Shown here: positions 43,190 through 60,684 of the stretch, piece after piece
Numbering within the stretch: the stretch's first letter is position 1
Layout: each line of letters opens with the position of its first letter
DNA from: a bacterium
GTDB lineage: Bacteria; Bacillota; Clostridia; Lachnospirales; Lachnospiraceae
Reading direction: 5' to 3'
Assembly: GCA_030535455.1 (NCBI GenBank)
Contig: JAUNJY010000024.1
Span: forward strand, 1 to 60,935
DNA: 60,935 bases
The notes under the pieces: generated by a model
Databases searched by the model: none
What the model was told of the DNA's origin: nothing
Seen by the model: only the letters and a program-made list of their open reading frames with translations
Translations under genes and position numbers: made by a program

Positions 43190-43299
43190 GACATCCTCCA
43201 ACTCATAAAATTCTTATATTCAAAAGCCTCTTACATTCAAATAAGAGGAATTTTAGTCTATATCTAATTATAGCACACGACCATATGTTCTGTACAAGA

Positions 43300-43535: not shown

Positions 43536-43540
43536 AAATG

Positions 43541-43581
43541 GAAAGAGGCAGTACCACGCATTGCGTGATACTGCCTCTTTC
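43541..43581 (-). terminator. 19-bp hairpin with the repeated apical core
   Basis: A nearly perfect stem with a 3-nt loop. The upper GTATCACGC-NNN-GCGTGGTAC is shared with the fhs terminator while the lower stem differs, and the one imperfect pair is G-U on the minus strand in both. It may end yloV transcription or be the 5' part of the ncRNA. Confidence 0.7.
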
Positions 43582-43620
43582 GTTACCTTCAGCGCTGGAT
43601 AAAATTCCATTTCATCCAAA

Positions 43621-43638
43621 GGCACCGTCCTCGGTGCC
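43621..43638 (-). terminator. Hairpin directly after yloV
   Basis: GGCACCG AGGA CGGTGCC followed by TTT on the minus strand, starting 3 nt after the yloV stop. Short T-run, so a weak terminator. Confidence 0.6.
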
Positions 43639-43640
43639 GC

Positions 43641-45314
43641 CTACTCTACCGATAATACATAGTAGTAAATTGGTTGACCACCTGGTTGAACTTCAACGTC
43701 AACATCAGGATATTTTTCAGTCACTGCATCTGCAATTGCATTTGCATCCTCTTCACTTACTTCTTCACCGTAATATATGCTTACAAGTTCAGCATCTTCG
43801 TCCATTAATTGGTCGATTAACTGAAGTGTAGTAGTTTCAATTTCTTTATCAACAGCAACAATTCCCTTATCACTGATACCCATGATATCACCCATAGTAA
43901 TTGTCATACCATCGATAGAAGTATCACGAACAGCGTAAGTTACTTGTCCACTCTTAACTTTATTCATCTCTTCTGTCATCTTAGCAGCATTTTCTTCTGC
44001 TGTCTTATCGAATACATAATTGATGATTGCTGTAATACCTTGTGGAATTGTCTTAGAAGGAATTACAATAATTTTCTTATCTTCTGTTAAGCTTGCTGCT
44101 TGTTCAGCAGCTAGGATAATGTTTTTGTTATTTGGTAAAATATAAATAACATCTGCATTCACTTTATCAATTGCATTTAACATATCTTCTGTAGATGGGT
44201 TCATTGTCTGACCACCTTCGATGATATAGTCAACGCCTAAGCCTTTGAAGATTTCATTAACGCCAGCACCGATAGAAACGGAAATAAATCCAACTTCTTT
44301 ACGAGGAGCTTGTTTTGCTTCTTCCTCTTCAGCTGCCTTTTGTTCTGCTGCAACTTTCTCAGCATCTTTGATTAAACGTTCCTCATGTTCTTCACGCATG
44401 TTATCGATCTTCATTCTTGATAAAGAACCATAAGTAAGCGCTCTTTGAATTGCAAGACCTGGATCATTTGTATGAACGTGAACCTTAACCATGTCATCAT
44501 CAGAAACAACAACGATGCTGTCACCGATAGATTCTAGGAAGCTCTTAAATTCATGTTCTGTTTCCATATCATAATGATTTTCAACATTTACAATAAATTC
44601 AGTACAGTATCCAAATTTAATATCAGCAGAGCTGATTGACTCTTTGGAAGCTGTTACGTTAGGTTTTGCACTTGGAGTAATCGTAATGTTTACTTCCTTA
44701 CCGCATAATGCATCAAATGCACCCTTAAGTACTGTCACAAGACCTTGTCCGCCTGAATCCACAACGCCTGCTTCTTTTAAAACAGGAAGCATATCTGGAG
44801 TCTTAGCTAACATTTCTTCCATATATTTTAATACTTCTTCACAGAAGTAAATTAAATCATCTGTTTCAGATACTAATTCTTCTGCTTTTACAGCACCAGC
44901 TTTTGCAACTGTTAAGATTGTACCTTCTTTTGGTTTCATAACTGCCTTATAAGCGGTTTCTACTGCTCGTTCAAATGCAGTTGCCATAATTGTAACGTCA
45001 ATTGTTTCTTGTTCTTTAATTTCTTTTGTAAATCCTCTAAATAATTGAGAAAGAATAACACCTGAGTTACCTCTTGCCCCTCTTAAAGACCCACTTGAAA
45101 TCGCTTTCGCTACGTTCTCCATAGTTGGTTCTGCAATACTACCTACTTCTTTTGCAGCGGACATAATAGTTAATGTCATATTTGTTCCTGTATCACCATC
45201 TGGTACAGGGAAAACATTTAATTCATTAATATATTCCTTTTGTGCTTCGATACTTTGCGCCCCAGCTAAAAAGCATTTTTGAAGCAACTTAGCATCAATA
45301 TTCTTCATAACCAC
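43641..45314 (-). CDS. DAK2-domain protein YloV (fatty acid kinase FakA-like)
   Basis: A 557-aa two-part protein. The N-terminal DhaL domain carries the Mg-nucleotide motif NVFPVPDGDTGTNM (about 33-46). The C-terminal half has the EDLVSIYYG-like and GGQPIYYYV segments of the FakA C-terminal domain. FakA homologs phosphorylate fatty acids held by FakB for phospholipid synthesis. The GTG at 45314 has AAGGAGG 9 nt upstream; an ATG two codons later is possible. It follows the Asp23 gene as in Bacillus yloU-yloV. Confidence 0.9.
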   Translation of the reverse strand: MVMKNIDAKLLQKCFLAGAQSIEAQKEYINELNVFPVPDGDTGTNMTLTIMSAAKEVGSIAEPTMENVAKAISSGSLRGARGNSGVILSQLFRGFTKEIKEQETIDVTIMATAFERAVETAYKAVMKPKEGTILTVAKAGAVKAEELVSETDDLIYFCEEVLKYMEEMLAKTPDMLPVLKEAGVVDSGGQGLVTVLKGAFDALCGKEVNITITPSAKPNVTASKESISSADIKFGYCTEFIVNVENHYDMETEHEFKSFLESIGDSIVVVSDDDMVKVHVHTNDPGLAIQRALTYGSLSRMKIDNMREEHEERLIKDAEKVAAEQKAAEEEEAKQAPRKEVGFISVSIGAGVNEIFKGLGVDYIIEGGQTMNPSTEDMLNAIDKVNADVIYILPNNKNIILAAEQAASLTEDKKIIVIPSKTIPQGITAIINYVFDKTAEENAAKMTEEMNKVKSGQVTYAVRDTSIDGMTITMGDIMGISDKGIVAVDKEIETTTLQLIDQLMDEDAELVSIYYGEEVSEEDANAIADAVTEKYPDVDVEVQPGGQPIYYYVLSVE

Positions 45315-45371
45315 CGGTTTGTTCCTCCTTAAAGTTATCTCTCTATAATTAGATCCCTTATTTTATAATAA

Positions 45372-45728
45372 TTAGTCAATGACACGAACGCCTTCTACGA
45401 AAATACGAATCTTTTCAACAGAAAGACCTGTGTATTCTTCAACTTTATATTTTACATTATTAATTAAGTTATCTGAAACGGCTGAGATACTAACACCATA
45501 AGCAACAATAATATGAAGATCGATTGAAATCTTATTCTCTTCAACTGTTACATTAACACCGTGACTAATATTTTCTTTTTTTAATAAATTAACGATGCCA
45601 TCTTTTACATTAAAAGAAGCCATACCTACTACGCCAAAAGACTCAATTGTACTTGAACCTGCATATTTAGCAATTACATCATTATCAATTAAAATCTCAC
45701 CAATTTGAGTATTCATATGTCCTTTCAT
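45372..45728 (-). CDS. Asp23/YloU family envelope stress protein
   Basis: A 118-aa Asp23/Gls24 protein: GEILIDNDVIAKYAGSSTIE, VVAYGVSISAVSDNL-type middle (IIVAYGVSI), and VEKIRIFVEGVRVID end. Bacterial homologs associate with the membrane and respond to envelope stress. The start follows GGAGGG at 45728; 27 upstream codons in frame lack support. Next to yloV and rpmB as in Bacillus. Confidence 0.93.
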   Translation of the reverse strand: MKGHMNTQIGEILIDNDVIAKYAGSSTIESFGVVGMASFNVKDGIVNLLKKENISHGVNVTVEENKISIDLHIIVAYGVSISAVSDNLINNVKYKVEEYTGLSVEKIRIFVEGVRVID

Positions 45729-45964
45729 ATTAACCCTCCAATTTAATATATACCAATCTTTTGTTTGATCATGGTGTATATTCCATGTATTTCTATAGCA
45801 ATGAGACAAATCTCATTTTTATATTATACCCTTATTTCTGTAAAAATGAAATAATATATTTTAAAAAGTGCCAAATATATCAAACCAAGCGCCTAAATCT
45901 AATCACTTAGGCATATACATAGTATTGATTATATATGTTAATTCCATGTATCGGATGTGATTTT

Positions 45965-46102
45965 TTGAGACGAATGCTTGGCTTTATTCTTTTCTGGATA
46001 GCAATCGGAATGACTTTTATGCTATTCATTACAAATGGAGTATTGGCAATTCTTATTATAATTTGTTGTTTAATTCTTGGCTATAATCTCTTCTGTTCCT
46101 AA
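45965..46102 (+). CDS. Small hydrophobic membrane protein (about 45 aa)
   Basis: A short frame reading MRRMLGFILFWIAIGMTFML onward to GYNLFCS. Two closely spaced hydrophobic helices fill it. GGATGTGAT, close to a Shine-Dalgarno, precedes a TTG at 45965; an in-frame ATG at 45935 (55 aa) lacks a site. The LGFILFWIAIGM start and GYNLFC end look like small clostridial membrane proteins I recall, but I cannot name a family. A 25-bp hairpin begins at its stop codon. Confidence 0.55.
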   Translation: MRRMLGFILFWIAIGMTFMLFITNGVLAILIIICCLILGYNLFCS

Positions 46103-46156
46103 CTTTTATGTTTGATAGGAAAGTGCGCGTACGCACCTTCCTATCAAACATAAAAG
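46103..46156. terminator. 25-bp hairpin between convergent genes
   Basis: Arms 46,103-46,127 and 46,132-46,156 pair at 24 of 25 positions; the odd pair is G-U on the minus strand, where the loop is UACG. It begins right after the small-protein stop. Probably a transcript end, unusually long for one. Confidence 0.7.
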
Positions 46157-46190
46157 GGATTCAAAACACAAAGAATGCATTTTGAATCCC
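46156..46190 (-). terminator. Terminator of rpmB
   Basis: GGGATTCAAAA pairs with TTTTGAATCCC and is followed by TTTTA on the minus strand, 34 nt after the rpmB stop. It shares one base with the 25-bp hairpin. Confidence 0.82.
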
Positions 46191-46224
46191 TCTCTACTCT
46201 AACAATGCTAACTTGTTATGTTAA

Positions 46225-46410
46225 TTAAGCACGTTCTACTAAACCTGATCTAAGGCATGAAGTACAAACATACATTTTCTTTGCAGCTCCATTTACATTA
46301 ACCTTAACAGATTTTACATTAGATTTCCACATTTTATTGCTTCTTCTATGTGAATGACTCACAGCATTACCAAAGTGAGCACCTTTTTCGCAAATTGCAC
46401 ATTTAGCCAT
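46225..46410 (-). CDS. rpmB: 50S ribosomal protein L28
   Basis: A 61-aa ribosomal protein: MAKCAICEKGAHFGNAVSHS start with zinc-type CxxC (C4, C7) and CTSC near the end, HRRSNKMWKSNV core. AAGGAGGTG precedes ATG at 46410; 37 upstream codons are open but unrelated. The C+ form keeps a four-Cys zinc site. Divergence from Asp23 is none: same strand, about 500 nt before it. Confidence 0.98.
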   Translation of the reverse strand: MAKCAICEKGAHFGNAVSHSHRRSNKMWKSNVKSVKVNVNGAAKKMYVCTSCLRSGLVERA

Positions 46411-46566
46411 TGAAAGCACCTCCTTAGCGTAATTTCCTGTACTGTTTCGCAAAGGAAACATAATATAGTTACACGACTTACACACAAATTGTATTCTAGC
46501 AGAATAAGTCATAATATGCAAGCATATTTTTATATTTTTTTGATATTTCTAAAATTTACAAAAATT

Positions 46567-46932
46567 CTATACTTCTTTCTCGTCTTCTTTTCCTTTAGAA
46601 AACTTATTTACAAAGTCTGGAACCATATCAAGGATCTTCGTAACTGAGTCTTGATTCTTAACATTTACAAGCTTTGTTGTTCCATCTTTAATGATTAAGA
46701 CGCTGCTAGGACTAATTCTTCCGCCTAGTCCACCACCGCCATTATTCTTTTTATTTTCATCATTTTGAAATACACCGGCACCAACACCAAAGCTTACGTC
46801 TGCTAGTGGCAGAATGATTGTTCCATCTTCCACTTTGATTGCATCACCTACTACAGTCTTCGTAGTGATAAAGCTATCCATTCCCTTAAATAAGGATTCT
46901 AATGTTTTGCTAAATGTAGTCTTTTCTTCCAT
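46567..46932 (-). CDS. ytfJ: GerW/YtfJ family sporulation protein
   Basis: A 121-aa protein with TVVGDAIKVEDGTIILPLADVSFGVGAG, a Gly-rich GGGGLGGR loop and SPSSVLIIKDGTTKLVNVKN, the YtfJ pattern. In Bacillus YtfJ (GerW) is a spore protein needed for normal germination. AAGGAGGAG precedes ATG, and the start overlaps the DUF2953 stop by one base (TAATG). It is the last gene of the eight-gene operon. Confidence 0.93.
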   Translation of the reverse strand: MEEKTTFSKTLESLFKGMDSFITTKTVVGDAIKVEDGTIILPLADVSFGVGAGVFQNDENKKNNGGGGLGGRISPSSVLIIKDGTTKLVNVKNQDSVTKILDMVPDFVNKFSKGKEDEKEV

Positions 46933-47912
46933 TATAACTCCTCCTTCAACTGCTTAACTTCTTTTATAACATATTTAAACTCTTTCTTTAATATCAACTG
47001 GATACACCAGATTAATAGAGTCAAAATCCTAACTCTTCCTCTTGCATACAAAGTTCCTTCTAATACTTTACGCTCAAACTCCGGTTTTAAATCCACTTTT
47101 CCAAGAATCTGAGGATAAATCGCACAGATTGCCCCAAGTACTTGCCCTGTCATAGCTGGGTCGTCAAACCCAAAATATAACGATACTTTATATTTTCTAG
47201 GCGATATATGGTTAAATACTTTACGTAGCGCTCCAAAAAGCGTTGTAAAACCAGGTTTATTCTTTTTGTCCATTAAAAAGCTCTTTACAAGTCCTGCTCT
47301 TTTTACCATAGACTTTATCATTGTTAGCATATCACGTATTTTTTGTTTTATACTTCGAATCCACTCGCCCGGATTTGTTAGTTTTTTAAAGAACCCCTTA
47401 CTGTTTGAAGACGACTCCTTCTCTTGATTGGCCGTTTCTGTCCCTGGTTCCTTCTTTTCTTGTGATGGTATTCCATCACGTTTTGGTTCAATCACAGAAA
47501 GGTCATTACCTCTCGGTTCTTCTTTCTGGTCTGAAGCCTGTTTACACGGAATGCTTATTTCCTCAGCTTTCTCTGCATTGGTTGTCTGCACCGTCTTATT
47601 CTGTTTCTTCTGATTTCTTACACGCTTCTTGCGCTTTCTTCGCTTTCTCTTTGGATTGCTCGATATAATCGGATATCCAAAGACACGAACCACATAAGTC
47701 ATCTTTTTGTTCAAATATTCTATTTTTACATAAATGATACCAAATAGCCAGCTGATCCGTCCCTTTGCCTTTGTCTCAAGCTTTTGTTCCGCGTTAACCT
47801 TATAGCGCAGCGGAACCAATAAAATAAGCAGAATGGCAAATAACAAAATACCGAGGATTACTGCTATTGTAATACCTATAATTTTCAATATTAATAATAT
47901 AACGTTTAGCAA
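46932..47912 (-). CDS. DUF2953 membrane protein (YtfI-like)
   Basis: An approximately 326-aa protein with one strong N-terminal membrane helix, a basic Lys/Arg patch (KRKRRKRKKRVRNQ, about 95-110), a charged low-complexity linker (to about 190) and a C-terminal DUF2953 region containing YKVSLYFGFDDPAMTGQVLG and GRVRILTLL. The longest frame starts TTG at 47927; GGGGTG seven nt before a TTG at 47912 favours the latter. DUF2953 (YtfI) next to YtfJ is the Bacillus arrangement. Confidence 0.85.
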   Translation of the reverse strand: MLNVILLILKIIGITIAVILGILLFAILLILLVPLRYKVNAEQKLETKAKGRISWLFGIIYVKIEYLNKKMTYVVRVFGYPIISSNPKRKRRKRKKRVRNQKKQNKTVQTTNAEKAEEISIPCKQASDQKEEPRGNDLSVIEPKRDGIPSQEKKEPGTETANQEKESSSNSKGFFKKLTNPGEWIRSIKQKIRDMLTMIKSMVKRAGLVKSFLMDKKNKPGFTTLFGALRKVFNHISPRKYKVSLYFGFDDPAMTGQVLGAICAIYPQILGKVDLKPEFERKVLEGTLYARGRVRILTLLIWCIQLILKKEFKYVIKEVKQLKEEL

Positions 47913-47930
47913 GTATTCACACCCCAATAA

Positions 47931-48254
47931 TTAGTCATTTAGAAACGAATAAAAGTACTCTCTTGCATTAAACTCGTCAGTATTGTTATAGATATCTAAC
48001 ACGATTTCTTCCACCAACGCTAACGCATTCTCTTTGCTATATGCCAGTCCCACGATATACACGGGGATTCTGGCATAATGTCGAAACAACAACTCATTGA
48101 CATTCATGATATCAAGGATATTGCTTTCATTTGATGCGATGCAAACACAATAGAGATTGATAGAAATCTTTCCACTTTCTATCTTTTCTTTCAGCTTCTT
48201 TATTTTCTTTTCAGCTTTCTGATCCAAATATAAATGTTGATACCATTTAATCAT
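47931..48254 (-). CDS. Conserved-context hypothetical protein (107 aa)
   Basis: Mixed helix/strand protein, no membrane helix or signal. It starts with a Lys-rich helix (KAEKKIKKLKEKIES) and then a hydrophobic core ISINLYCVCIASNESNILD. It overlaps nothing but is separated by only 6 and 3 nt from neighbours. I recognise no family. Its position between the helical 472-aa protein and YtfI suggests it works with them. Confidence 0.7.
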   Translation of the reverse strand: MIKWYQHLYLDQKAEKKIKKLKEKIESGKISINLYCVCIASNESNILDIMNVNELLFRHYARIPVYIVGLAYSKENALALVEEIVLDIYNNTDEFNAREYFYSFLND

Positions 48255-48260
48255 AAAAAT

Positions 48261-49679
48261 CTATTCCACCATTTCGTTTAGTAATAAGCGCATCGCTACT
48301 GTCTTTTCCCTGATATTCTTACATTGTTCTAAAGAAGCTCTTGCATAATCCATTACTTCATTTGTATTTTGGAAAAATACAGGCATCGTGCTTAATACAT
48401 TTGCCATAATGGCACGATTTATGCATTGTGGATATGCTTTAAAGCTTTCTGTCATTTCATTGATCACAGCCTCTGCTGCTTTTGATACTCTTTCCTCTGT
48501 AAGTAATGAAACTTCCTCTTGCTTATGGATATCAATGAACACACTGTTGCTTGTAAGTTTTTCACAAAGGAAGAAGCTTTCAAATGCAGGTTTTAACTGG
48601 ATTGCTTCTACAACATCCATATAGTTTTGTTTTACATCTGTTAAGGAACCTTCCAATGCAATGTATCTTTCATAATATACTTCTTGTTTTCCGACAATTC
48701 CATCAAGCAATGACATTAATTGATCATTCACTTCTTCTGTTAACTTCGCATCAAAGTTTTCATTTAAAAGTGTTACGATCGTTCTGCAATTTTCACTCAA
48801 TGTTTCATCATTGTTTATCGTGTAAGGCATTGTAAGTACATAAATATATAAATTGTTAATCACTTTTTGAGCAAATAAGTAAATGTCAGAAACTTGGTTA
48901 ATATAGACAGAGGAATCAATTAATAAAGAACAAAGCTTACGATATGTTTCCTTATCAAGGTTTCCATAATCTGCGGATTCTAATTCGTCTTTTACTGATT
49001 TTAAGTTTAAAAATTGATCTGCTTCTTTTTCTGGGCGATATAACATCGCATTTGTTCTTAACATATATTCAAAAGTTTCAAGGGATGCTGCATCGGAATC
49101 TTTGTAACGGTCAAGGCTAGCCTTAACGTAATCAAAGAACTTGGACTTAAGCATTCTGACCGGAAGCTGTCCAACCATTTCTTGAATTCTGCTATTTATT
49201 ACAACGTTGTCTTTTGATGCGAATAAGTAATAGTTTAATTTTTCAATAAATAATGCTTCATCAATTTCTTCATAGGAAGCTGAAAAATCTAACTCGAAAC
49301 GATTTAACACATATTCGTAGATACGTAATGTATCTGTATACATAGTTAAAACGTCCATTTTTTGCATGATTGTATTACGTATTGCATCTAACTTCTTGAT
49401 GCTCGTTTCCCGATCTTCTACGGAAAGTCTTTCTACTGCTACCGTCTTCACTAACTCATTAAGCTCACAAATTACTTCTTTTGCTTCTTCATATGTGTCC
49501 TTATTTTCGCTAATTTCATCTTCGATATATTCTTTTAATCCGTAATACTCTAATGCTAATTGTAAACTAGAGTAATCATTAAGTACACCCGCCATAGCGT
49601 TGGAATATTGTGGGAGTATCACTTCTAAATTCTTTCCATCATTAATTTCTTTAATCATTTTTCTGAATTGTTTATTCAT
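48261..49679 (-). CDS. Large helical cytosolic protein of unknown function
   Basis: A 472-aa, almost entirely helical, acidic protein with no signal, no membrane helix and no recognised catalytic motif. It looks like a repeat-helix scaffold. The ribosome site CGAGG overlaps the stop of the upstream permease gene, so translation is coupled. Being locked between two ABC-2 permeases and YtfI/YtfJ, it is a candidate cytosolic adaptor for that membrane complex; this is inference only. Confidence 0.7.
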   Translation of the reverse strand: MNKQFRKMIKEINDGKNLEVILPQYSNAMAGVLNDYSSLQLALEYYGLKEYIEDEISENKDTYEEAKEVICELNELVKTVAVERLSVEDRETSIKKLDAIRNTIMQKMDVLTMYTDTLRIYEYVLNRFELDFSASYEEIDEALFIEKLNYYLFASKDNVVINSRIQEMVGQLPVRMLKSKFFDYVKASLDRYKDSDAASLETFEYMLRTNAMLYRPEKEADQFLNLKSVKDELESADYGNLDKETYRKLCSLLIDSSVYINQVSDIYLFAQKVINNLYIYVLTMPYTINNDETLSENCRTIVTLLNENFDAKLTEEVNDQLMSLLDGIVGKQEVYYERYIALEGSLTDVKQNYMDVVEAIQLKPAFESFFLCEKLTSNSVFIDIHKQEEVSLLTEERVSKAAEAVINEMTESFKAYPQCINRAIMANVLSTMPVFFQNTNEVMDYARASLEQCKNIREKTVAMRLLLNEMVE

Positions 49680-49682
49680 ATG

Positions 49683-50891
49683 TTACCTCGCTAATACTCT
49701 TAATTTTATGTCTGTTATAATGTTGTAAATAAATGCTAATAGAACAAGCATTACCACTGGAAAGAATCTTATGGAAGGCTTGTCTGCTAGTATTATATCA
49801 ATTATATGGCTAATAAACCAGTAATTTGGCATATTTTTTGCAAAACTATTTAAAAACGGAACTGTGATCTGTCCAATTGAGGCCATAATGCTTACTCCGC
49901 CCATAAAAAAGATGAGTATTACGCCAACAAACTGAAACAATGTGTCACGACTAATAAGCTTTGACAAGATGGCAAACCCTGTGGTCATCACCCAGGTAAA
50001 TAAAATAAGCGCGCCAAGCAGACAAGCTTTTTCCGTTACTGTACTAAGTCTTAGAAGCTCGCCCATATACCAGCTGACCCCTAACAAGACAAGGCTTTCC
50101 CAAATGAATAAGGATAACAGATTTGAGTTTTCCATTATCCTTGTTGAAATCAAACAAATCCTCATCCGTTTTTCTACTTCCTTATGCCTTCTTTGACAAA
50201 GAACAAGAAACATGCTGATAAAGGATAGAAATAATGTTGCAACACCCAAATAAATCTGTGTAGTCAAAATAGAATTCTTAGTCTCAATGGAATTCGATAT
50301 TTTTCCCTCAGCAACCTTTACATAGTCATACTCAAAAAATCCATCTGCATTTATCAATTCGGACTGTTCCATATAAGGGATATATTCTGTCTCTTTTACC
50401 AAGTCATAGTCCCGTATATTATCCTCATAAAGCTTCTTTCCTTGATAAAGCATAAGGTCTTCCATAATACTTTTTGCAAATATATCTGAAAGGATCGATA
50501 CAAAGTTATAGTCATATAGATAATACATACTGATGATCTGCTTTGTATCTGCTGACTTTATCTTTTCCTCCAGCCCATCTTCAATCACAAAATATGCATA
50601 AATCGTTTCTTCTTCCAAAGCCTTGTTAAGCTCTTTGACAGACCATTCATGTACCGTAAAGCCTTCAGTCTGCTTTACTCCTTCTACAAGCTTTCTAGAA
50701 CTCTCGCTCTGATCCTTGTCATATACGCCAATTCCAAGACTCGTCTTCTTGTCATACTCCTTTACAAACCCGGTAGAAACAATTACGAATACAGCCGATA
50801 CCAGCAACAGGGTAATGACTGCAAGCTTATTTGCCAAAAAACATTTTACATTTAACAGGAGAATTGTTTTTATATCTCTAATTATTTTCAT
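49683..50891 (-). CDS. ABC-2 type permease
   Basis: A 402-aa membrane protein of the YhgE/ABC-2 layout: one helix at about 20-40, a large outer domain (about 45-210, beginning GIGVYDKDQSESSRKLV), then about five helices. It overlaps the upstream permease gene by 14 nt. GGAGG precedes ATG. Such proteins form the membrane half of exporters; a partner ATPase is expected but none is encoded in the operon. Confidence 0.82.
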   Translation of the reverse strand: MKIIRDIKTILLLNVKCFLANKLAVITLLLVSAVFVIVSTGFVKEYDKKTSLGIGVYDKDQSESSRKLVEGVKQTEGFTVHEWSVKELNKALEEETIYAYFVIEDGLEEKIKSADTKQIISMYYLYDYNFVSILSDIFAKSIMEDLMLYQGKKLYEDNIRDYDLVKETEYIPYMEQSELINADGFFEYDYVKVAEGKISNSIETKNSILTTQIYLGVATLFLSFISMFLVLCQRRHKEVEKRMRICLISTRIMENSNLLSLFIWESLVLLGVSWYMGELLRLSTVTEKACLLGALILFTWVMTTGFAILSKLISRDTLFQFVGVILIFFMGGVSIMASIGQITVPFLNSFAKNMPNYWFISHIIDIILADKPSIRFFPVVMLVLLAFIYNIITDIKLRVLAR

Positions 50892-52116
50892 ACTCTCCTC
50901 CTATCTGTATCTGTCTTGTCCTTCTGATTGCAATCAATGCTAACAAATATGATAATAAAGTGATCAAAACTAGAGTTATGACCATTGTCGTAACTGCCGG
51001 ACCACCATTATTTTCATTGGAATACTGAATGCAATTAAAAATTATATGATAATTTGGGGAAACCTTTGCTAACTTGACAAACCGATATGGCATAACTGAA
51101 ATCGGATATACGACTCCTCCCAATATCCCCATACACAATAATCCCAAATTGCTAACGATCATATACGTCTTCTTATCCTGGAAGATGCTTGCAAGCAAAC
51201 AAAAGAAGGTATTGGCGGCAAATATGCATAATACTAAAAATATGAAGCCTTTCAAAGGAAACGTGGAATGCATCATATTACATATAATCTTTGTTACTGA
51301 GCATGTAAGAAGCGACCAAAGAAATGTGTTGGTTAATATGATTGCGGTTAATACGCTTGCCATAGAGTGCCCTATAATTTGAAGTCTTGCAAAAGTCCCT
51401 AATGACACTTCCCTTAAAAGGGAAAAACCAGATATGACTGCAGAATATAAGATGATCAAAGAAATAACTGCCCAGATATAGTACTTATAGATTGGCGTAT
51501 GAGGCATTGTGGTAACTTCATGTTTTTCAAATAAATCCTCTCGCGCAAGTGCCTGTTTTACCAATTCTATACTTGTATTAAAATTAATCTTATCCAGTTC
51601 TTTTTCTTCAATGCCAGTCGCTTTAAACAGCTCATATAATGCGAATGAATTTTTCTGTACATTGGTTATGTATGTATCATAACTGTCTAACATATTACTA
51701 AGCATTACCGATACTACTGTATTATTTGTATTGATCATGGTCTTTATCTTTGTAGCCGAACCATTCATCAGACTTTTTGAAAACCCTTCTGGGATTATTA
51801 AATAAGCGCTGATTTCTCCATTTAAAAATTTTGCATGGACTTCTTCCTCGCTCCCCTTCTGAAAGGAAGCAAATTTCTGAAAGGACCCTGCCTCTTTAAA
51901 ATAGCCGATAATCATAGTGGAGTATATCGACTGATCATAATCTACCACACCAAAACTTTCGGCAGGCACCTGTCTTTGGCCCTTATTATCAGATTTGGCA
52001 GTCTGGTTAAAATAAACCACACTGCCAAATAATATACATAAGATACCTAAGGAACAGACCATTACTTTTCTATTTGTAAACGTCTCTTTTAGCGTTTTCA
52101 CTAAATACCAAAACAT
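50878..52116 (-). CDS. ABC-2 type permease
   Basis: A 412-aa protein with the same layout as its downstream neighbour: N-terminal helix (about 25-42), outer domain with FGVVDYDQSIYSTMIIGYF, then about six helices including GGVVYPISVMPYRF. AGGAG stands 5 nt before the ATG at 52116; the frame opens 6 codons earlier. The two probably form a heterodimeric transport channel. Confidence 0.83.
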   Translation of the reverse strand: MFWYLVKTLKETFTNRKVMVCSLGILCILFGSVVYFNQTAKSDNKGQRQVPAESFGVVDYDQSIYSTMIIGYFKEAGSFQKFASFQKGSEEEVHAKFLNGEISAYLIIPEGFSKSLMNGSATKIKTMINTNNTVVSVMLSNMLDSYDTYITNVQKNSFALYELFKATGIEEKELDKINFNTSIELVKQALAREDLFEKHEVTTMPHTPIYKYYIWAVISLIILYSAVISGFSLLREVSLGTFARLQIIGHSMASVLTAIILTNTFLWSLLTCSVTKIICNMMHSTFPLKGFIFLVLCIFAANTFFCLLASIFQDKKTYMIVSNLGLLCMGILGGVVYPISVMPYRFVKLAKVSPNYHIIFNCIQYSNENNGGPAVTTMVITLVLITLLSYLLALIAIRRTRQIQIGGEYENN

Positions 52117-52124
52117 AGTATCTC

Positions 52125-53342
52125 CTATATCCATTCCTGATAGGTTGCAATCGTACCAAGAATATTTGTTGTAAGACCAAACAAGAATAAGATGATTTGA
52201 TAGTTAAACAATCGATCATCCTCATTTGGAGTTGTTTTCATTAATACATAGAACAGGTAAGGCAATAAGTCGATAAAGTATCGATTGCCAAACTGCCATC
52301 CGCCAAGTGTCTTATGGCTAAGAATTAATAACATATGCACTACCATCAGCACAAGATGCATCTTTATTAATCCTTTGTCTTCTAGCTGTTTCTTACGTCC
52401 GAAATACAACAGGTACATGGCATACGTAATATAAATCGGCATAGACACCCAAATAGCCATACCATTAAATTTACAGTAGCTAAATGTACCATTATTATAT
52501 TCTGCCAATCGAAAAATACTAGAAAAATTAGAAAAGATATACTTAATATTAAACTGGCCAAGCTCTGCCTCCGTAAACTCCGGCAAATAATTGTGGCCAA
52601 ACTCAAAAATACTTCCAAATCTGGCATAATTCAGCCACATATAGATACCTGCCACAATCAACGTTGGTACTGCCCAGTAAATTTTCTTCTTAACAAGCGT
52701 AATCAAGGTATCCTCAGCATGGACCTCTTTCCATTTATGATAAATGATATAGACAAGAACAGGGAAGTAAATCACCTGAAACGGTCTGCATCCAACAGAA
52801 CAAGCCCAAAAGAAAAAGCTAAGCCCGCCCTTTAGCTTCATTGCATAATAGATAGCCATGACTGAAAGGGTAAAACTTAAATTCTGAGCGATAAACCACA
52901 CCCATCCATTACTTGAAACAAAGACAAGATTGCTTGCTATCATTAAGAATAATGTCCAAAATGCCACATGCTTCTTGTTCAATGCATATAGAATTTCCAT
53001 TACATAATAAGCACCAAGCAATGTACTTATCATGGCTATCAAACCATCCAGATGATAAGAATGGGTAAGAAGCCCTAAAATATAAAACAGAAAGGATGGG
53101 AACGGTGGAAAGCTCACGTAATACTTTCCACCATAAATAGCAAGTTCAAGGTAGCTATAATTCTGCCCAAGATCTAACCTTCCCTCTGACCACGCCTGCG
53201 CCTGTAACGAATATGAGTTATAGGTACCTGCAGCATCACTCCAAGGAAAGAAGCCAGTGATCTGAAAAATCACACCATACACCAATGCCAGTCCCAGAAA
53301 CACCAGTCCTAAATTGGTCATCCTTTTATTATCATTTTGCAT
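52125..53342 (-). CDS. GT-C type membrane glycosyltransferase-like protein
   Basis: A 405-aa protein with about ten membrane helices. Early PWSDAAGTYNSYSLQAQAW followed by GRLDLGQNYSYLELAIYGGKYYVSFPPFPSF matches the shape of GT-C glycosyltransferases, with an acidic D in the first outer loop as putative catalytic base. The start ATG at 53342 follows GGGGGAG; the longer frame has none. It is 14 nt after the large GT-39 gene. Uses a polyprenyl-phosphate sugar by family analogy. Confidence 0.78.
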   Translation of the reverse strand: MQNDNKRMTNLGLVFLGLALVYGVIFQITGFFPWSDAAGTYNSYSLQAQAWSEGRLDLGQNYSYLELAIYGGKYYVSFPPFPSFLFYILGLLTHSYHLDGLIAMISTLLGAYYVMEILYALNKKHVAFWTLFLMIASNLVFVSSNGWVWFIAQNLSFTLSVMAIYYAMKLKGGLSFFFWACSVGCRPFQVIYFPVLVYIIYHKWKEVHAEDTLITLVKKKIYWAVPTLIVAGIYMWLNYARFGSIFEFGHNYLPEFTEAELGQFNIKYIFSNFSSIFRLAEYNNGTFSYCKFNGMAIWVSMPIYITYAMYLLYFGRKKQLEDKGLIKMHLVLMVVHMLLILSHKTLGGWQFGNRYFIDLLPYLFYVLMKTTPNEDDRLFNYQIILFLFGLTTNILGTIATYQEWI

Positions 53343-53356
53343 ATACTCCCCCACCT

Positions 53357-56300
53357 TTATCGTCGTAATAATACCCAAGAATCTCGCCAACGCAAGAAGG
53401 TATTTACATATTCCTTGCTAATAGGCATACCAGATAATACTGGATAGAACATAAAGAAGAGAATAATGCAAAGTACAACATAGATTATTACTGGAATTCT
53501 AAACTTCTTATTTTTATCAATCAATGCTTTCGCACAATATACAATCATAAGGATTACAAAAGGCACACTTGGGAAGTAATGATAGATAAATGTACATCTA
53601 GTTACTAACATCCAAGGTAAATACTGTGCCAGATATCCAATGAATAAAAAGGCTGCCAAACGGTCTTTTCTCTTATATGCAAGCGCTAAAGTTCCAAACG
53701 CAGCCGGAATTCCCATCCACCAGATAAATGGATTACCAAAGGAACTAATTCCCTCTGCCGTTGTCGCTGACAAATCGCCTGAATAGTACCAGATTGGACG
53801 AGAAACGATTGGCCATTCATACCAGTTCGAAGAGAATGGATGAGTGGCATCCAGATGAGCATGATAATTAAACATATCCCATTGATTCTTAATCATACGT
53901 TCAATCAGCCCCATACCTTCCGTACTTCTAAATGGAATATAGGAAAGTGTATAAATAATCGCAGGTATAAAGATAAATACTACAAAACAAAATGCGATTG
54001 TCTTCCAAGTATATTCATAAAAATGTTTTACTACATGTTCATGGTCAATGCCATTTGTTGATCCTTTAGGATCTAATAAGGCATATCTGTATTCCTGGTA
54101 TCTCTTATACAAGTTTGCAAAGAAGATTACTGCAAGCCCTGCAGCACCATACACCCCTGTCATCTTAGAAGCGATTGCAAGTCCCATTGTAATACCACAA
54201 AGCCCTAGTGGCACAAACGTCTTCTTAAGACTTGTATCAAAGAAGCTGGTGGAGATATATTTATACATAAAATAGTACATAAGCATAATAAAGAAGGTAA
54301 CGAATACATCAATTGTGGCAATACGTGTCTGCGCATAATGCATAAAATCACAGGCAAACAGTAAGCATGCCATCGTTGCAAAGGATTGTTTTTTGAACAA
54401 GCGTCTTGCAAAGATATAGATCAAAGGAAGCATTGCAATACCAAATAATGTTCCCATAATACGCCAACCAAAAGGATTTACCCCAAAGATCACCATACCT
54501 GTGGCAATTAAAATCTTACCTAGTGGAGGATGGGTCCATTCATACGTATATAATCCATGTAAGAATTCATATCCAGTTCTTGCATGATAGATTTCATCAA
54601 AATAAGTTCCACTTCGGTAGGACTCTTTTTCTTCGTACATATCCTGTTCATCAAATAATGCTGTGTATTGCTCTGAATTGGCAGGAATAAGTTTTACACC
54701 ATTTGGATCAATGAAGACAAATTCATTGATTACCGCTTTTTCTGACTTGCTAATCAATCTAACATATCTGGCTTCAATATCTAGAATTTGACTATTCCAG
54801 CAAAATACAGAACTAAATTCAAACGTATATTGTGTAACCGTAGAATCCGAATCACTATCAGAAGAATCATAAGAGGAATTAATTAACTTCGTCCAAGCTT
54901 CTGTATCGGAATTTCTATATTCGATTTCAAACTTACGGCTTTCATAATTTCCAAGGTATGCACTAACCTTGCTTATATCAGCCGTTGCTCCAAAATCAAG
55001 TTCAATGGTTCCATCTTCCTCATACGTAGACCAGCTACTCTCCGGAGCATACATAAATCCAAGGTTGTATAAGGCAATCGCAGCATAAACAGCTGTTATT
55101 CCAAACATAATTAAGAAATCTTTCTTTGTAAGGCGATTAAAACGCTTGGATGGTGTAATCGTACCTTTATTTTGAATTCCTTCGTTTTCCTTTTCCTGTG
55201 CTTCTTCTATGGTAACTGTTTTCACCTCAACATCATGGAAGAAATATTTCCATATTGCAAATGCAAGCAGTACAAACACCAAAAGCGTTGCAAATGAAAT
55301 CATTTTTGGAACTTTAGCCTCCCAATCATAATTTGCTGCATCATAGAAAAATAACACATGAGCCACATTATAAAGACTAGTTACCGAGAACAAGCCATAT
55401 ACAAAGAATAACTCTTTATGAGGTCTAGCCAAGTACGCACATAATAACAGTACTAATGCCGGGAACATATAACGTTCATGCATTCTTACTGAGAACAGGA
55501 ACATAAAGATATTAATAAACGCTCCTACCATGTAAATACGTGCGTCATCTCTCTTTGACTTAAAGAAGATTACGCCGGCAATTACAACCGTTGCTAAAAT
55601 CACAAGGTATCCAAGAACCACATAAGGAATTCCTAAGAATGTCTCTGTCTGTGCCACCCAGTTCTTGCCGAACAACATCCAGATATTATACGCATTTACA
55701 GACGCATATGGATAAGATGACATGGTCTCAGTATATTGGGCAATAATCTTTCCAACACCAAATGGCATAATTAATACTACCATTCCTAAAATAGAGCCAA
55801 TTGACCATGCAAGCAATCTTAAAAACTCCTTGGCATGATATTCAAATGTCAGCTTACTGTTTTTATACGTGACAAATGACTTTTCAATACATGCAAATAA
55901 CAATACCGGTGTAAAGAAAAGTGTCTGAGGCTTCATTAAGACACCGATTGCAAAACTAATAATTGCATATGGATATTTGTTTTCCGTAATAAAATAGCAC
56001 ATAAGCAAAACAAACAATGTGTAAACGCTGTCGACCTGTCCCCAAACAGAGGAATCAAGTACAACAACAGGATTAAACACATAGAGTAATGTACAAATAA
56101 GTGATGTCTTTTCCGTAAATCTTTTTCTGGCAATCTTATAAATAAGATAACCTGCCGCAAGATCACAGAGTATTGCAGGAGCCTTAACAAGTAGTATTCC
56201 CATCACACTGCTGTAAGACTCTACATCAAAGAGACTGATAAACTTACCGACTACAAACAAGACATAAATATATCCTGGTGGGTAATCTGTAAATACGTCC

Positions 56301-56566
56301 TCTCGATAAAAATTCCCTAATCCATCATTTGCAGCCATTCTTGCCCAACTAAAAAAGCAATTCATATCCGTATCAAACCCTGTATAAACTACCGAAATAA
56401 TAAGTTTAATAATGAGTGCAAATGCCAATAGCCAAGCGATGCCTGTCCAGCTTTTATAGATTGGCAGATCGCCATTCCTGCTGGCAGGTGTTAATTCAAA
56501 GTATGTTCTATAAATTGCTAAGCACGCTATAACCGTGACTATGGCAATTAAATTAATATATAACAT
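53357..56566 (-). CDS. Double GT-C glycosyltransferase: N-terminal GT-C plus C-terminal PMT (GT39) with lectin-like insert
   Basis: A 1069-aa fusion. Residues 1-440 form a first GT-C module (D65 and D67 in FDTDMN, VFTDYPPGY, DSSVWGQVDS). About 505-620 is a soluble beta module resembling F5/8-type lectin domains (SKVSAYLGN, EIEYRN, EARYVRLIS). From about 640 the PMT module has FDEIYHA (D657, E658) and THPPLGK (678-684), the GT39 catalytic signature. It should transfer sugars, such as mannose, from lipid carriers to acceptors outside the membrane. It leads an eight-gene operon. Confidence 0.88.
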   Translation of the reverse strand: MLYINLIAIVTVIACLAIYRTYFELTPASRNGDLPIYKSWTGIAWLLAFALIIKLIISVVYTGFDTDMNCFFSWARMAANDGLGNFYREDVFTDYPPGYIYVLFVVGKFISLFDVESYSSVMGILLVKAPAILCDLAAGYLIYKIARKRFTEKTSLICTLLYVFNPVVVLDSSVWGQVDSVYTLFVLLMCYFITENKYPYAIISFAIGVLMKPQTLFFTPVLLFACIEKSFVTYKNSKLTFEYHAKEFLRLLAWSIGSILGMVVLIMPFGVGKIIAQYTETMSSYPYASVNAYNIWMLFGKNWVAQTETFLGIPYVVLGYLVILATVVIAGVIFFKSKRDDARIYMVGAFINIFMFLFSVRMHERYMFPALVLLLCAYLARPHKELFFVYGLFSVTSLYNVAHVLFFYDAANYDWEAKVPKMISFATLLVFVLLAFAIWKYFFHDVEVKTVTIEEAQEKENEGIQNKGTITPSKRFNRLTKKDFLIMFGITAVYAAIALYNLGFMYAPESSWSTYEEDGTIELDFGATADISKVSAYLGNYESRKFEIEYRNSDTEAWTKLINSSYDSSDSDSDSTVTQYTFEFSSVFCWNSQILDIEARYVRLISKSEKAVINEFVFIDPNGVKLIPANSEQYTALFDEQDMYEEKESYRSGTYFDEIYHARTGYEFLHGLYTYEWTHPPLGKILIATGMVIFGVNPFGWRIMGTLFGIAMLPLIYIFARRLFKKQSFATMACLLFACDFMHYAQTRIATIDVFVTFFIMLMYYFMYKYISTSFFDTSLKKTFVPLGLCGITMGLAIASKMTGVYGAAGLAVIFFANLYKRYQEYRYALLDPKGSTNGIDHEHVVKHFYEYTWKTIAFCFVVFIFIPAIIYTLSYIPFRSTEGMGLIERMIKNQWDMFNYHAHLDATHPFSSNWYEWPIVSRPIWYYSGDLSATTAEGISSFGNPFIWWMGIPAAFGTLALAYKRKDRLAAFLFIGYLAQYLPWMLVTRCTFIYHYFPSVPFVILMIVYCAKALIDKNKKFRIPVIIYVVLCIILFFMFYPVLSGMPISKEYVNTFLRWRDSWVLLRR

Positions 56567-56667
56567 TTCTTCACCTGGTCCTTTCGTTTCATTTATCGCA
56601 AATGTATAAATATTCTTTAAAACATTTACTTTTATTTAATTTTACATATTTTTCGGTAATAAGTAAA

Positions 56668-56696
56668 GTACCTGGAAACATTTCGTTCCCAGGTAC
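56668..56696 (-). terminator. Terminator of pyk
   Basis: GTACCTGG-GAAC pairs with its partner with one G-U on the minus strand around a 5-nt loop, then TTTACTTATT, 34 nt after the stop. Confidence 0.75.
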
Positions 56697-56730
56697 ACAG
56701 AAAATTCATATTTAATTAAGCTCTCTATTA

Positions 56731-58152
56731 TTAATCAATAGAAACTACTTTGATCATGTTTGTTACACCAGTTTTACCAGTTGGTACACCTGCAGTTAAT
56801 ACGCATGTATCATCTTTTTCAACATAACCTAAATCTTTTGCAGTTTGAACTGCTACATCAAGTAATACGTCAGTATCATTTTCTTCTTGAATGTAAACAG
56901 GAGTTACACCCCAGTAAATTTGCATTCTACGTAATGTAGCTTTTACAGGAGATAAACCTACGATAGAAGCTTCAGGTTTGAATTTACTTAACATTCTAGT
57001 TGTATAACCAGACATAGAACTTGCTACGATAACTTTAGATTGTAAAGTCATTGCAGTTGTTACAGAAGCATAACAGATTGCACTGGAAATACCTCTTGAA
57101 CGATGTCTTTGTTTTTCTTCGATGATTAAGTCGTAATCTAAATGTCCTTCAGTTTCGCGAGCGATGTTAGCCATCATACGAACTGATTCTACTGGGTATT
57201 TACCCATTGCAGTTTCACCAGATAACATGATTGCATCTGTACCATCATAGATTGCGTTAGCAACGTCAGTTACTTCAGCTCTTGTTGGTCTTGGATTACG
57301 GATCATGGAATCTAACATTTGAGTTGCAGTGATAACTGGTTTGTAAGCATCGTTACATTTCTTGATGATTGTTTTTTGCATCTTTGGAACACTTTCCACA
57401 GGTACTTCAACACCAAGGTCACCACGAGCTACCATGATACCATCAGATTCTTTGATAATTTCATCAATATTATCAATACCTTCTTCATTTTCAATCTTAC
57501 TGATGATTTGAATGTCGGCATTGTATTCATTTAAAATTCCACGAATTTCTCTTACTGCTGCTGCATTTCTTACGAATGATGCTGCAATGAAATCTACTTC
57601 GTTTTTGATACCGAAGATAATATCTTCTTTATCTTTTTCAGTGATAGCAGGAAGATTAATTGCTACGCTAGGAATATTAACACCTTTACGGTTGCTTAAA
57701 GCTCCACCGTTGATTACTTGACAAACAACGTCATGTCCAGATACTTCTTTTACTAATAATTCGATTAAACCATCGTCAAGTAAGATTGTGTTACCTGGAA
57801 CAACATCTTTAATAAGGTCTTCATAAGTTACTGCAACTTTATCTACGTTACCAATGATGTCATCGATAGTTAATGTGAATGTTTGTCCTTGAATTAATTC
57901 TACTTTTTCGTCATTTTCTAATAACTTAGTACGAATTTCAGGTCCTTTTGTATCTAAAAGGATTGCAACTGGTACGTTTAATTCTTCACGTACAGCTTTA
58001 ATTGTGTTAATAGTTTCTAAGTGTGTTTCGTGAGTACCATGAGAGAAGTTAATTCTCGCAATATCCATTCCTTCTGCAATTAACTTTTTAAGTTGTTCTG
58101 GGGTATTCGAAGATGGTCCAATGGTACATATAATTTTAGTTTTCTTTTTCAT
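56731..58152 (-). CDS. pyk: Pyruvate kinase
   Basis: A 473-aa glycolytic enzyme (PEP plus ADP to pyruvate plus ATP). It has KTKIICTIGPSSN, RINFSHGTHE, LLDTKGPEIRT, the catalytic region ISKIENEEGIDNIDEI, VARGDLGVE and TATQMLDSM. It lacks the extra C-terminal PEP-utiliser-like domain of Bacillus Pyk, so it is the short form. GGAGG precedes ATG at 58152; 33 open codons upstream are leader. An inverted repeat lies in that leader. Confidence 0.97.
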   Translation of the reverse strand: MKKKTKIICTIGPSSNTPEQLKKLIAEGMDIARINFSHGTHETHLETINTIKAVREELNVPVAILLDTKGPEIRTKLLENDEKVELIQGQTFTLTIDDIIGNVDKVAVTYEDLIKDVVPGNTILLDDGLIELLVKEVSGHDVVCQVINGGALSNRKGVNIPSVAINLPAITEKDKEDIIFGIKNEVDFIAASFVRNAAAVREIRGILNEYNADIQIISKIENEEGIDNIDEIIKESDGIMVARGDLGVEVPVESVPKMQKTIIKKCNDAYKPVITATQMLDSMIRNPRPTRAEVTDVANAIYDGTDAIMLSGETAMGKYPVESVRMMANIARETEGHLDYDLIIEEKQRHRSRGISSAICYASVTTAMTLQSKVIVASSMSGYTTRMLSKFKPEASIVGLSPVKATLRRMQIYWGVTPVYIQEENDTDVLLDVAVQTAKDLGYVEKDDTCVLTAGVPTGKTGVTNMIKVVSID

Positions 58153-58176
58153 ATATTCCTCCAAGTTATCAACACT

Positions 58177-58232
58177 AAACTTTATCACGTACATTTTTAG
58201 TATATCCAGTATTCGCTTAAACGATAAAGTTT
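58177..58232. promoter_or_regulatory. Inverted repeat in the pyk upstream region
   Basis: AAACTTTATC (58177-58186) and GATAAAGTTT (58223-58232) form a perfect 10-bp inverted repeat with a 36-nt interval that holds a TATACT. It could be an operator or a leader stem. Confidence 0.45.
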
Positions 58233-58282
58233 TATTTTCAATTAAGGCCATGTCGGAACCTTAATCGGAACCCGCTTAAAGA

Positions 58283-59167
58283 CTAATGTCTTTTCACGTG
58301 TTCATGCGTAAAAAGATGTTCCATACAATATTCATAATTGCCGTCGCATCTGGAGCAGAATCTAAATTCAAGATTTTCATCATCTAGCTCTGTTCTACCA
58401 CATACCGCACATCTGTGACGAGGTCCGGATGTCGTTGCATTACGCACTTGTTCTTTATATTTAATCTTTCGTTTTGTATGCTTAGCTGAAAAGCCTCTTC
58501 GTCTTTTGAATGCCAAGAAAAATATAACGAAATTTAATAAAGCTACGAAAATTGCAATCCCTTGATATACTGCTCCAACGCTGATTGCTTGTATCATTTC
58601 AATAACAATTTCTACTGCATATAGAATACCGAGATATTTCATCTTAATCGGTATAATGAAATAAAATAATACTTGTGCGTCAGAAAAGACAAAGGAACAC
58701 AATATGATGAGCGTTGTATTAATGTAGTTAATCCCCATTTTTCCATACCATAGGCTATAAATTCCAGCATAATAGCCTGTTTTAGGATCAAAAACAATAT
58801 AAATAATAAACGCTGCTAAAATATTTAATAAAATTCCTGATAGATAAAACATGTTAAATCTAACAGTGCCCCAAGCATTTTCAAGACTTCTGCCGAAATA
58901 GTACATAAAATATAATGTCAATGCAGTGAAAATAATATTAACACCACTCAGGCTGTATCCGCCTGGTACTAAAACGAATGTAATCAATCTCCAAATCTGC
59001 TTTCCGTGTATAATTTTGTACATATCTAGTGATAAATACGTATCAAGAAATCCTGGTGCAATCGTCTGGATGACTAAACCTGCTACCTGACAAATAATAA
59101 TGTAATACATTAAATTTGAAATTGCATGTTTGCCAAATCTGCGTTCCATTCGATCTAATAAACTCAT
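58283..59167 (-). CDS. Rhomboid/derlin-like membrane protein with C-terminal zinc ribbon
   Basis: A 294-aa protein with about six helices. IHGKQIWRLITFVLVPGG and YFGRSLENAWGTVRFNMFY are rhomboid-superfamily motifs, but the serine protease GxSG and the later His are absent, so it is probably a non-proteolytic (derlin-like) member. The soluble C-terminus has a zinc site: C253, C256, C271, C274, C281 and nearby His. Function unknown. GGGTAGGT precedes ATG. Confidence 0.82.
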   Translation of the reverse strand: MSLLDRMERRFGKHAISNLMYYIIICQVAGLVIQTIAPGFLDTYLSLDMYKIIHGKQIWRLITFVLVPGGYSLSGVNIIFTALTLYFMYYFGRSLENAWGTVRFNMFYLSGILLNILAAFIIYIVFDPKTGYYAGIYSLWYGKMGINYINTTLIILCSFVFSDAQVLFYFIIPIKMKYLGILYAVEIVIEMIQAISVGAVYQGIAIFVALLNFVIFFLAFKRRRGFSAKHTKRKIKYKEQVRNATTSGPRHRCAVCGRTELDDENLEFRFCSRCDGNYEYCMEHLFTHEHVKRH

Positions 59168-59193
59168 ATTCTAACCTACCCTTCGTCAAAACT

Positions 59194-59233
59194 TTGGGAC
59201 ATTCCCAAATAAGACTCCATTGTAGTCCTATTT
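59194..59233 (-). other. Paired hairpins after corA
   Basis: AAATAAGACT/AGTCCTATTT (59207-59233) and TTGGGA/TCCCAA (59194-59208) lie side by side after the corA stop. The first is wobble-consistent with the minus strand. They probably end the message, though T-runs are weak. Confidence 0.45.
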
Positions 59234-59249
59234 ATATGTTGTAATAAGA

Positions 59250-60185
59250 TTAAAATAAATCTTTTTTCGCAAAGAAGTAAGCGATTGTTCCAGTTAAACA
59301 TAACGCTCCTACTGTGACAATATAAAATCCAAATGGATTATGTCCTAAGGGAATATTATCGAAGTTCATACCATAGAAACTTGCAACCATTGTTGGGATT
59401 GATAATACAATCGTAACTGTTGCAAGGAATTTCATAACGATATTTAAGTTATTGGAGATTACTGATGCAAATGCATCCATCATTCCGCTTAAGATACCAC
59501 TGTAGATATTCGCCATTTCAATAGCTTGCTTGTTTTCGATAATAACATCTTCAAGAAGCTCCGTATCTTCCGGATATTTCTTGATGCTTTCTGTCTTCAT
59601 TAGTTTTTCTAAAACCACTTCATTTGCACGTAAAGATGTTGTGAAATAAACTAGGCTTTTTTCCAGTTCAAGTAATTCAATTAACTCGCGATTTTTTGTC
59701 GATTGGTGTAATTTATGCTCAATCTCTTCACTTTTATGATCAATAATTCTTAAGTATTGTAAGAATACTGATGCGTTTTTGTAAAGAATTTGAAGAATAA
59801 AACGTGTTTTCATATGTGTATAGAAGCCTTTTACTCTTCCATCCATGAAGCTTTTTAAAATTGATGTTTCTTCAAGACAAACCGTAATGATTACTTCCTT
59901 TGCAATAATGATTGCAAGTGGAATTGTAATATAACGGTCTTTTCCATTACGTGCTTCTAAAGAAGGAATATCTACTAATACTAGCGTATAATCATCTTCA
60001 ATCTCAATTCTGGAACGTTCCTCTTCATCAAGAGGAGCTCTTAAATGATCAATATCAATATTGAATCGTTCTGAAACATCTAATAATTCAGAGGCACTTG
60101 GATTTGTCATTGCAATCCAGCTGCCTTCTTCTGCTTCATTCACCTTATGAATTCCACCATCATAAGTCTTAAAAATTTCTACCAT
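59250..60185 (-). CDS. corA: CorA-family divalent cation transporter
   Basis: A 311-aa Mg/Co-type channel. A long cytosolic domain (to about 250) includes coiled helices (KSEEIEHKLHQSTKNRE), then two helices at the C-terminus separated by the selectivity signature GMN (YGMNFDNIPLGHN, from G272). AAGGAG stands before the ATG at 60185; the frame opens 8 codons earlier. Ion specificity is not certain from sequence. Confidence 0.94.
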   Translation of the reverse strand: MVEIFKTYDGGIHKVNEAEEGSWIAMTNPSASELLDVSERFNIDIDHLRAPLDEEERSRIEIEDDYTLVLVDIPSLEARNGKDRYITIPLAIIIAKEVIITVCLEETSILKSFMDGRVKGFYTHMKTRFILQILYKNASVFLQYLRIIDHKSEEIEHKLHQSTKNRELIELLELEKSLVYFTTSLRANEVVLEKLMKTESIKKYPEDTELLEDVIIENKQAIEMANIYSGILSGMMDAFASVISNNLNIVMKFLATVTIVLSIPTMVASFYGMNFDNIPLGHNPFGFYIVTVGALCLTGTIAYFFAKKDLF

Positions 60186-60616: not shown

Positions 60617-60652
60617 CAAAAACCGCATGCACCAAATATTCGATGCATACGG
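60617..60652 (-). terminator. Terminator of the LysM-protein gene
   Basis: CCGTATGCATC and GGTGCATGCGG pair (two G-U on the minus strand) around an 8-nt loop, then TTTTTG, 33 nt after the stop. Confidence 0.82.
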
Positions 60653-60684
60653 CTAGACATTCTCCTTCTAAATTTATATTCCGT

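Follow-up and report, generated by a model that had tools for sequence, protein, structure and literature searches.

The genes for S107, YtfI and YtfJ are the core of a gene run in a Lachnospiraceae-related bacterium; the gene for H472, an all-helical protein, is a frequent addition to this core, and the other genes of the run are lineage-specific. We call the trio the core because it is present in nearly all neighbourhoods examined, with or without H472. In some loci, H472 is itself preceded by a pair of ABC-2 permease genes (ABC2a and ABC2b) with no ATPase gene nearby, and the four pair-bearing genomes inspected encode elsewhere an ABC ATPase with no membrane partner. Our preferred, though tentative, reading of these sequences is a conserved envelope module whose upstream parts are interchangeable. 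In it, the permease pair would be an exporter powered in trans, for which an ATPase encoded on contig C3 of the window genome is the best candidate, and H472 and S107 would serve as adaptors in the cytosol. With an unstudied but widely kept trio joined to an orphan pump, a hidden envelope system becomes testable.

Gene order in the window and the S107–YtfI–YtfJ core

The stretch of DNA analysed here (the window, 60,935 nucleotides) comprises positions 1–60,935 of contig JAUNJY010000024.1 (assembly GCA_030535455.1). Its ORF listing bears out the compact run of the original prediction, with eight successive, tightly packed minus-strand ORFs extending from 56566 down to 46567. From the second gene onward, the gaps are −10, −14, +3, +6, +3 and −1 nt; that between the first two genes (−34 nt as listed) is set by the start codon chosen for the 421-aa gene, in which an in-frame ATG further downstream is the likelier start. 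The hairpin ahead of the run has a 13-pair stem with 6 G-C pairs and a T-rich tail, and comes from a consensus scan that gave 14 terminator-like sites against 6.9 expected by chance. Promoter-like sites in the same scan were not in excess (60 against 68.8 by chance), and no Rfam family reached its gathering score over positions 43000–60935. The 294-aa multi-TM protein encoded further upstream, which has a Cys/His-rich tail and no Pfam match, probably belongs to a separate unit here.

Table 1 Coordinates of the eight genes and of neighbouring features in the window.
Feature	Position	Strand	Basis
PMT fusion, 1069 aa	53357..56566	-	Pfam PMT_4TMC, PMT_2, PMT
Multi-TM protein, putative GT-C (label by eye), 421 aa	52125..53390	-	ORF
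ABC2a, ABC-2 permease subunit, 418 aa	50878..52134	-	PF12698, 1.4e-28
ABC2b, ABC-2 permease subunit, 402 aa	49683..50891	-	PF12698, 3.2e-21
H472, soluble all-helical protein, 472 aa	48261..49679	-	Profile and AlphaFold2
S107, small alpha/beta protein, 107 aa	47931..48254	-	Neighbourhoods and AlphaFold2
YtfI-like, one N-terminal TM and DUF2953, 331 aa	46932..47927	-	PF11167, 2.2e-8; hydropathy
YtfJ/GerW-like, 121 aa	46567..46932	-	PF09579 (Spore_YtfJ), 3e-25
Terminator-like hairpin between pyruvate kinase and the first gene	56668..56696	-	Consensus match only
Multi-TM protein, rhomboid-like by eye, 294 aa	58283..59167	-	Matched in 48/83 H472 loci

We read the neighbourhoods of 90 H472 loci, comprising a first set of 83 (the window, L001, L002 and 80 fetched loci) and a second set of seven read later (L145, L146, L147 and L149–L152). 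These represent 86 of the 113 genomes from the first H472 search (the window, 80 and 5), together with G311 and G202 from the profile search, plus L001 and L002. The genes at these loci were called mechanically as ORFs and labelled by profile, so a permease or S107 of very divergent sequence could have escaped notice.

Among the loci examined, the complete eight-gene order is restricted to the window genome and one near relative (L001), whose H472 is 90% identical to that of the window. These two are also the only loci of the 90 with the 421-aa gene. The PMT and permease genes come and go and S107, YtfI and YtfJ stay constant, so that the eight-gene order did not hold up as a conserved unit, and the interest of the locus lies more in its conserved pieces than in the whole run. 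YtfI and YtfJ lie downstream of H472 in 83 of 83 first-set loci and in six of the seven second-set loci, L152 meeting its contig end; S107 is found in 89 of 90 (82/83 and 7/7). The same trio is present in 20/20 loci of YtfJ-bearing, H472-negative genomes, a non-random sample drawn from the best YtfJ matches. YtfJ itself occurs in 377 of 397 genomes of the family (376 above the curated cut-off). Across the class, a sample of 196 genomes contained S107 in eight, of which six belong to the window's family and one to another family of the order, the last being a weak match. The locus from the other family (L148) has the gene order S107, a 225-aa protein, YtfI, YtfJ.

The YtfJ-like protein of the window scores 88.7 bits for Spore_YtfJ against a Pfam cut-off of 25, and falls under the cut-off of the NCBIfam equivalog TIGR02874 (65 versus 116.3 bits). 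In Bacillus subtilis, ytfI is paired with ytfJ (gerW), and the window likewise has a DUF2953 gene directly before the Spore_YtfJ gene; unlike in B. subtilis, the two are preceded by S107 and at times also by H472, and are kept in genomes without SpoIVA. A Spore_YtfJ match was also seen in an archaeon, Methanosarcina acetivorans, among the control genomes. Also, in many H472-negative relatives (L114–L132), genes that look by eye like FtsW/RodA, penicillin-binding and NUDIX genes precede S107, which hints at a link to the cell wall.

Further upstream the genes vary, and include rimO-, pgsA-, cinA- and lysA-like genes (by eye), the rhomboid-like gene, pyruvate kinase and PMT. The 1069-aa PMT fusion of the window matches the Pfam families PMT_4TMC (4.9e-27; 95.2 bits versus a cut-off of 32.4), PMT_2 (3.3e-21) and PMT (4.1e-15; 56.4 versus 22.7 bits). 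It resembles protein O-mannosyltransferases in these domains and in weak PDB matches to PMT 2 and PMT 4 chains (1e-4 to 0.004), and differs from known PMTs in being fused to an N-terminal multi-TM half that has no library match; between this half and the C-terminal PMT domain lies a weak discoidin-like stretch, with F5_F8_type_C_2 under its cut-off. PMT fusions occur in 15 of the 90 H472 loci, five of which (the window, L001, L034, L145 and L146) also have the permease pair. The 421-aa protein gave no usable Pfam, NCBIfam or PDB match. At L038 (G054), a 319-aa protein resembling, by eye, a polyprenyl-phosphate glycosyltransferase is encoded between PMT and H472, and would suit a lipid-linked sugar donor for PMT.

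Distribution relative to the sporulation marker SpoIVA

In one genome survey, SpoIVA is described as universally present in the bacilli and clostridia covered (PMC3533761). SpoIVA (TIGR02836) was detected in 258 of 397 genomes of the window's family at E ≤ 0.001, 252 of them above the curated cut-off, and the window genome is among the carriers. By genome, H472 and SpoIVA occur together in 82, H472 only in 33, SpoIVA only in 176 and neither in 106. YtfJ is present in 130 of the 139 SpoIVA-less genomes, showing that the family is not confined to genomes with spoIVA, and H472 in 33 of the 139; some genomes are incomplete, but for 22 of these 33 completeness is given as 95% or more. Additionally, the permease pair is present in the SpoIVA-less genomes G068, G134 and G311.

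These distributions bear on the original prediction of an envelope- or spore-glycan assembly and export system. Its joining of PMT to the permease pair is borne out at five loci, and its spore specificity has not survived: the module does not look spore-specific. We consider a dedicated spore-glycan assembly and export system very improbable, even though the PMT-bearing pair loci, the SpoIVA of the window genome and the listing of ytfJ as a sigma-F gene in B. subtilis (PMC3416734) would all agree with it. Set against these are the retention of YtfJ, H472 and the permease pair in SpoIVA-less genomes and, in a study of two Bacillus species, the absence of a germination effect on loss of GerW/YtfJ (PMC4366231). 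A spore role is possible in the SpoIVA-bearing window organism. More broadly, YtfJ, supposedly a spore protein, is likely to be a general envelope protein.

H472 and the permease pair upstream of it

H472 was found in 113 of 397 same-family genomes by single-sequence search and in 118 by profile (115 without three near-threshold matches), and lies immediately before S107 in about 29% of the family's genomes. An AlphaFold2 model built on 75 rows is confident and all-helical (pLDDT 95, pTM 0.91, no strand of three or more residues), and hydropathy gives no TM segment. The S107 model has an alpha/beta fold (pLDDT 89, pTM 0.78). Pfam had no convincing match for either protein, nor for the 421-aa protein; a profile search against the PDB gave no relative of H472 (best E 2.5) and no convincing one of S107, and Foldseek gave none for either at E ≤ 0.001. 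VIA-align on both returned only values that its scale rates common. By these comparisons, H472 and S107 are undescribed protein families, as had been predicted, leaving two role-less families that are kept in an abundant family of anaerobes. At one locus (L149, G192), H472 is split into two ORFs of 330 and 250 aa, with PMT, S107, YtfI and YtfJ around it.

H472 had been noted to sit where an ATPase might be expected, and was considered as a stand-in for one. A Walker A-like string appears in one of 75 rows and is unconserved, and H472 therefore bears no sign of being an ATPase. The all-helical model and the lack of an ATPase match in Pfam argue in the same direction, as does the distribution of the permeases, which are missing from 75 of the 89 loci where the sequence continues upstream of H472. 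An ATPase-substitute role of H472 is not supported.

Both permeases score above the curated cut-off of ABC2_membrane_3 (76.2 and 100.4 bits versus 31.6), a family whose exporter members include NatB, YbhS/YbhR and DrrB-like proteins. Like these exporters, the window has two different permease genes in tandem, each product with six TM-like segments and a large loop after the first by hydropathy; unlike them, the window pair has no adjoining ATPase and has H472, S107, YtfI and YtfJ as fixed partners. The pair occurs in 14 of 90 H472 loci and is immediately upstream of H472 every time. Of the 76 loci scored as pair-less, L046 is cut off by its contig end just upstream of H472; in the other first-set loci without the pair, hydropathy shows no unlabelled gene in either upstream position that resembles a second permease pair. 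In each of 11 loci compared with the window, the a-a and b-b matches beat the a-b matches, making the genes orthologous by position, at alignment identities to the window of 16–31% outside L001.

A profile search with ABC2a over 210 same-family genomes, for which the number of H472-negative genomes is not given, returned eight matches of at least 260 bits, all just upstream of H472, the next best scoring 108 bits. In-frame stops are listed for three of the eight (G134, G068 and G101); the frames in G134 and G068 stop earlier than that of the window and the G101 frame has 361 residues, suggesting a shorter C-terminal end of ABC2a in these genomes, whether by design or decay. The pair adjoins H472 even in G311, whose copy is very divergent.

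A tree of H472 from 79 of the 90 loci was built by a quick method and contains several long branches. Presence of the pair requires at least nine changes on it, three of them forced by well-supported branches, which is fewer than in any of 500 shuffles. Such a pattern may mean that the pair joined H472 long ago and was lost repeatedly, or that the pair has moved. Within one genus, the pair is absent from G345 and present in G024. The number of changes, along with the wide variation of the upstream genes, could be taken to mean that these genes are chance neighbours without joint function, and that only S107–YtfI–YtfJ, and perhaps H472, belong together. We regard this as distinctly unlikely, given that eight of eight strong ABC2a matches adjoin H472, that the G311 pair does so beside such a divergent copy, and that pair-bearing loci group together on the tree more closely than in all 500 shuffles.

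A partner-less ATPase and the proposed mechanism

The permeases were predicted to be without a local ATPase, and the same proved true of all 14 pair loci. Searching the fetched stretches of these loci with phmmer and three ABC ATPase queries gave no ATPase save the window's own at about 40 kb distance (7661–8368), the sole ABC-ATPase match on the window contig at E ≤ 1e-15. As a control, phmmer found ATPases at four pair-less loci (L058, L073, L105 and L111), all of which were missed by a less sensitive motif scan. In contrast to the window pair, another ABC2_membrane_3 pair of the same genome, on contig C112, directly adjoins its ATPase.

One ATPase query gave 89 ABC-ATPase matches in the window genome, and in 17 of the 18 places inspected a membrane protein is encoded beside the ATPase or one gene off; with 18 places inspected against 89 matches, further partner-less ATPases may exist. 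The 18th place, on contig C3, encodes a 238-aa ABC ATPase (PF00005, 1.8e-31; L183:10148-10864) without a membrane partner, flanked by a 772-aa cNMP_binding protein and a 529-aa TPR protein (cassette L183:7806-12493). Orthologues with 63%, 54% and 51% identity, again with no adjoining membrane permease, are present in the pair-bearing genomes G265, G127 and G024. All four orphan ATPases group in a single clade (support 100/99), and each has intact Walker A, signature and Walker B motifs, with the H-loop pattern matched in 2/4. In the pair-less genome G099, the best ATPase has 39% identity, is permease-flanked and groups with a permease-flanked ATPase. The link between the C3 ATPase and the permease pair is a lead from a small sample, four pair-bearing genomes and one pair-less genome chosen for their pair status; as a pairing of an orphan pair with an orphan ATPase, it is concrete and falsifiable.

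A split ABC-2 exporter is the simplest reading because the pair is bound to H472, has no local ATPase and co-occurs with a conserved partner-less ATPase elsewhere. In a more specific version, which we hold to be possible but doubtful, H472 would be the exporter's own adaptor, and with the ATPase at the cNMP-binding/TPR locus, a nucleotide signal might control export. As counterpoints, the orphan ATPase could serve another function, or the ATPase of another exporter could be shared.

The main rival is that the pair no longer transports and is an ATPase-free membrane scaffold or receptor for an H472 assembly, comparable to the YhgE/Pip type, in which ABC-2-fold proteins work without an ATPase. 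In ABC-2 transporters, the coupling helices lead one to expect conservation of the TM2-TM3 loop where an ATPase docks. This loop of ABC2a has the pattern E-x3-G-x3-R in 11 aligned rows (E in 10, G and R in 11), which speaks against a mere scaffold. The loop argument is weak, however, because ABC2b keeps the pattern poorly and two control permeases with their own ATPase lack it. The strict tie to H472, the poorly kept ABC2b loop and the ATPase-free pair loci fit a scaffold, but an intact partner-less ATPase in all four pair-bearing genomes inspected does not, and overall we find this explanation unlikely.

An ordinary ABC exporter might instead borrow an ATPase that belongs to a different exporter of the cell, much as several importers are served by MsmK. 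MsiK, like MsmK, is a shared, trans-encoded ABC ATPase, and such systems resemble the present case in that the ATPase is encoded apart from the permeases; unlike them, our candidate, whose pairing with the permeases is conjectural, adjoins cNMP-binding and TPR proteins, and those ATPases serve sugar importers. To our knowledge, sharing is known for importers rather than ABC-2 exporters. The 89 ATPase matches would offer ample choice, and a report on Streptococcus suis describes MsmK sharing in sugar import (PMC4519317). Weighing this importer precedent against the C3 orphan as the simpler candidate, we judge borrowing to be improbable.

Returning to the envelope module that we favour, S107, membrane-anchored YtfI and YtfJ would be its base, kept regardless of spoIVA. 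H472 would join directly upstream where present, with the permease pair before H472 in some genomes and PMT before the pair in fewer. ABC2a and ABC2b would form an exporter powered from another locus, the C3 ATPase being the best candidate, and H472 and S107 may couple this exporter, as cytosolic adaptors, to YtfI-YtfJ at the membrane. PMT might glycosylate the exported or a surface product; transport by the pair, and any substrate, are what we infer from gene content.

The surroundings of the orphan ATPase vary between genomes. The cNMP-binding protein accompanies it in G265 and G024 as well, and not in G127; the cNMP-binding/ATPase/TPR arrangement is possibly a cyclic-nucleotide-gated ATPase cassette. 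A pyrophosphatase-like gene (by eye) comes next in three of the four genomes (L183, L175, L176 and L177). In G127, the cNMP-binding protein is replaced by a 1475-aa soluble ORF that adjoins the orphan ATPase (L176:6531-10958).
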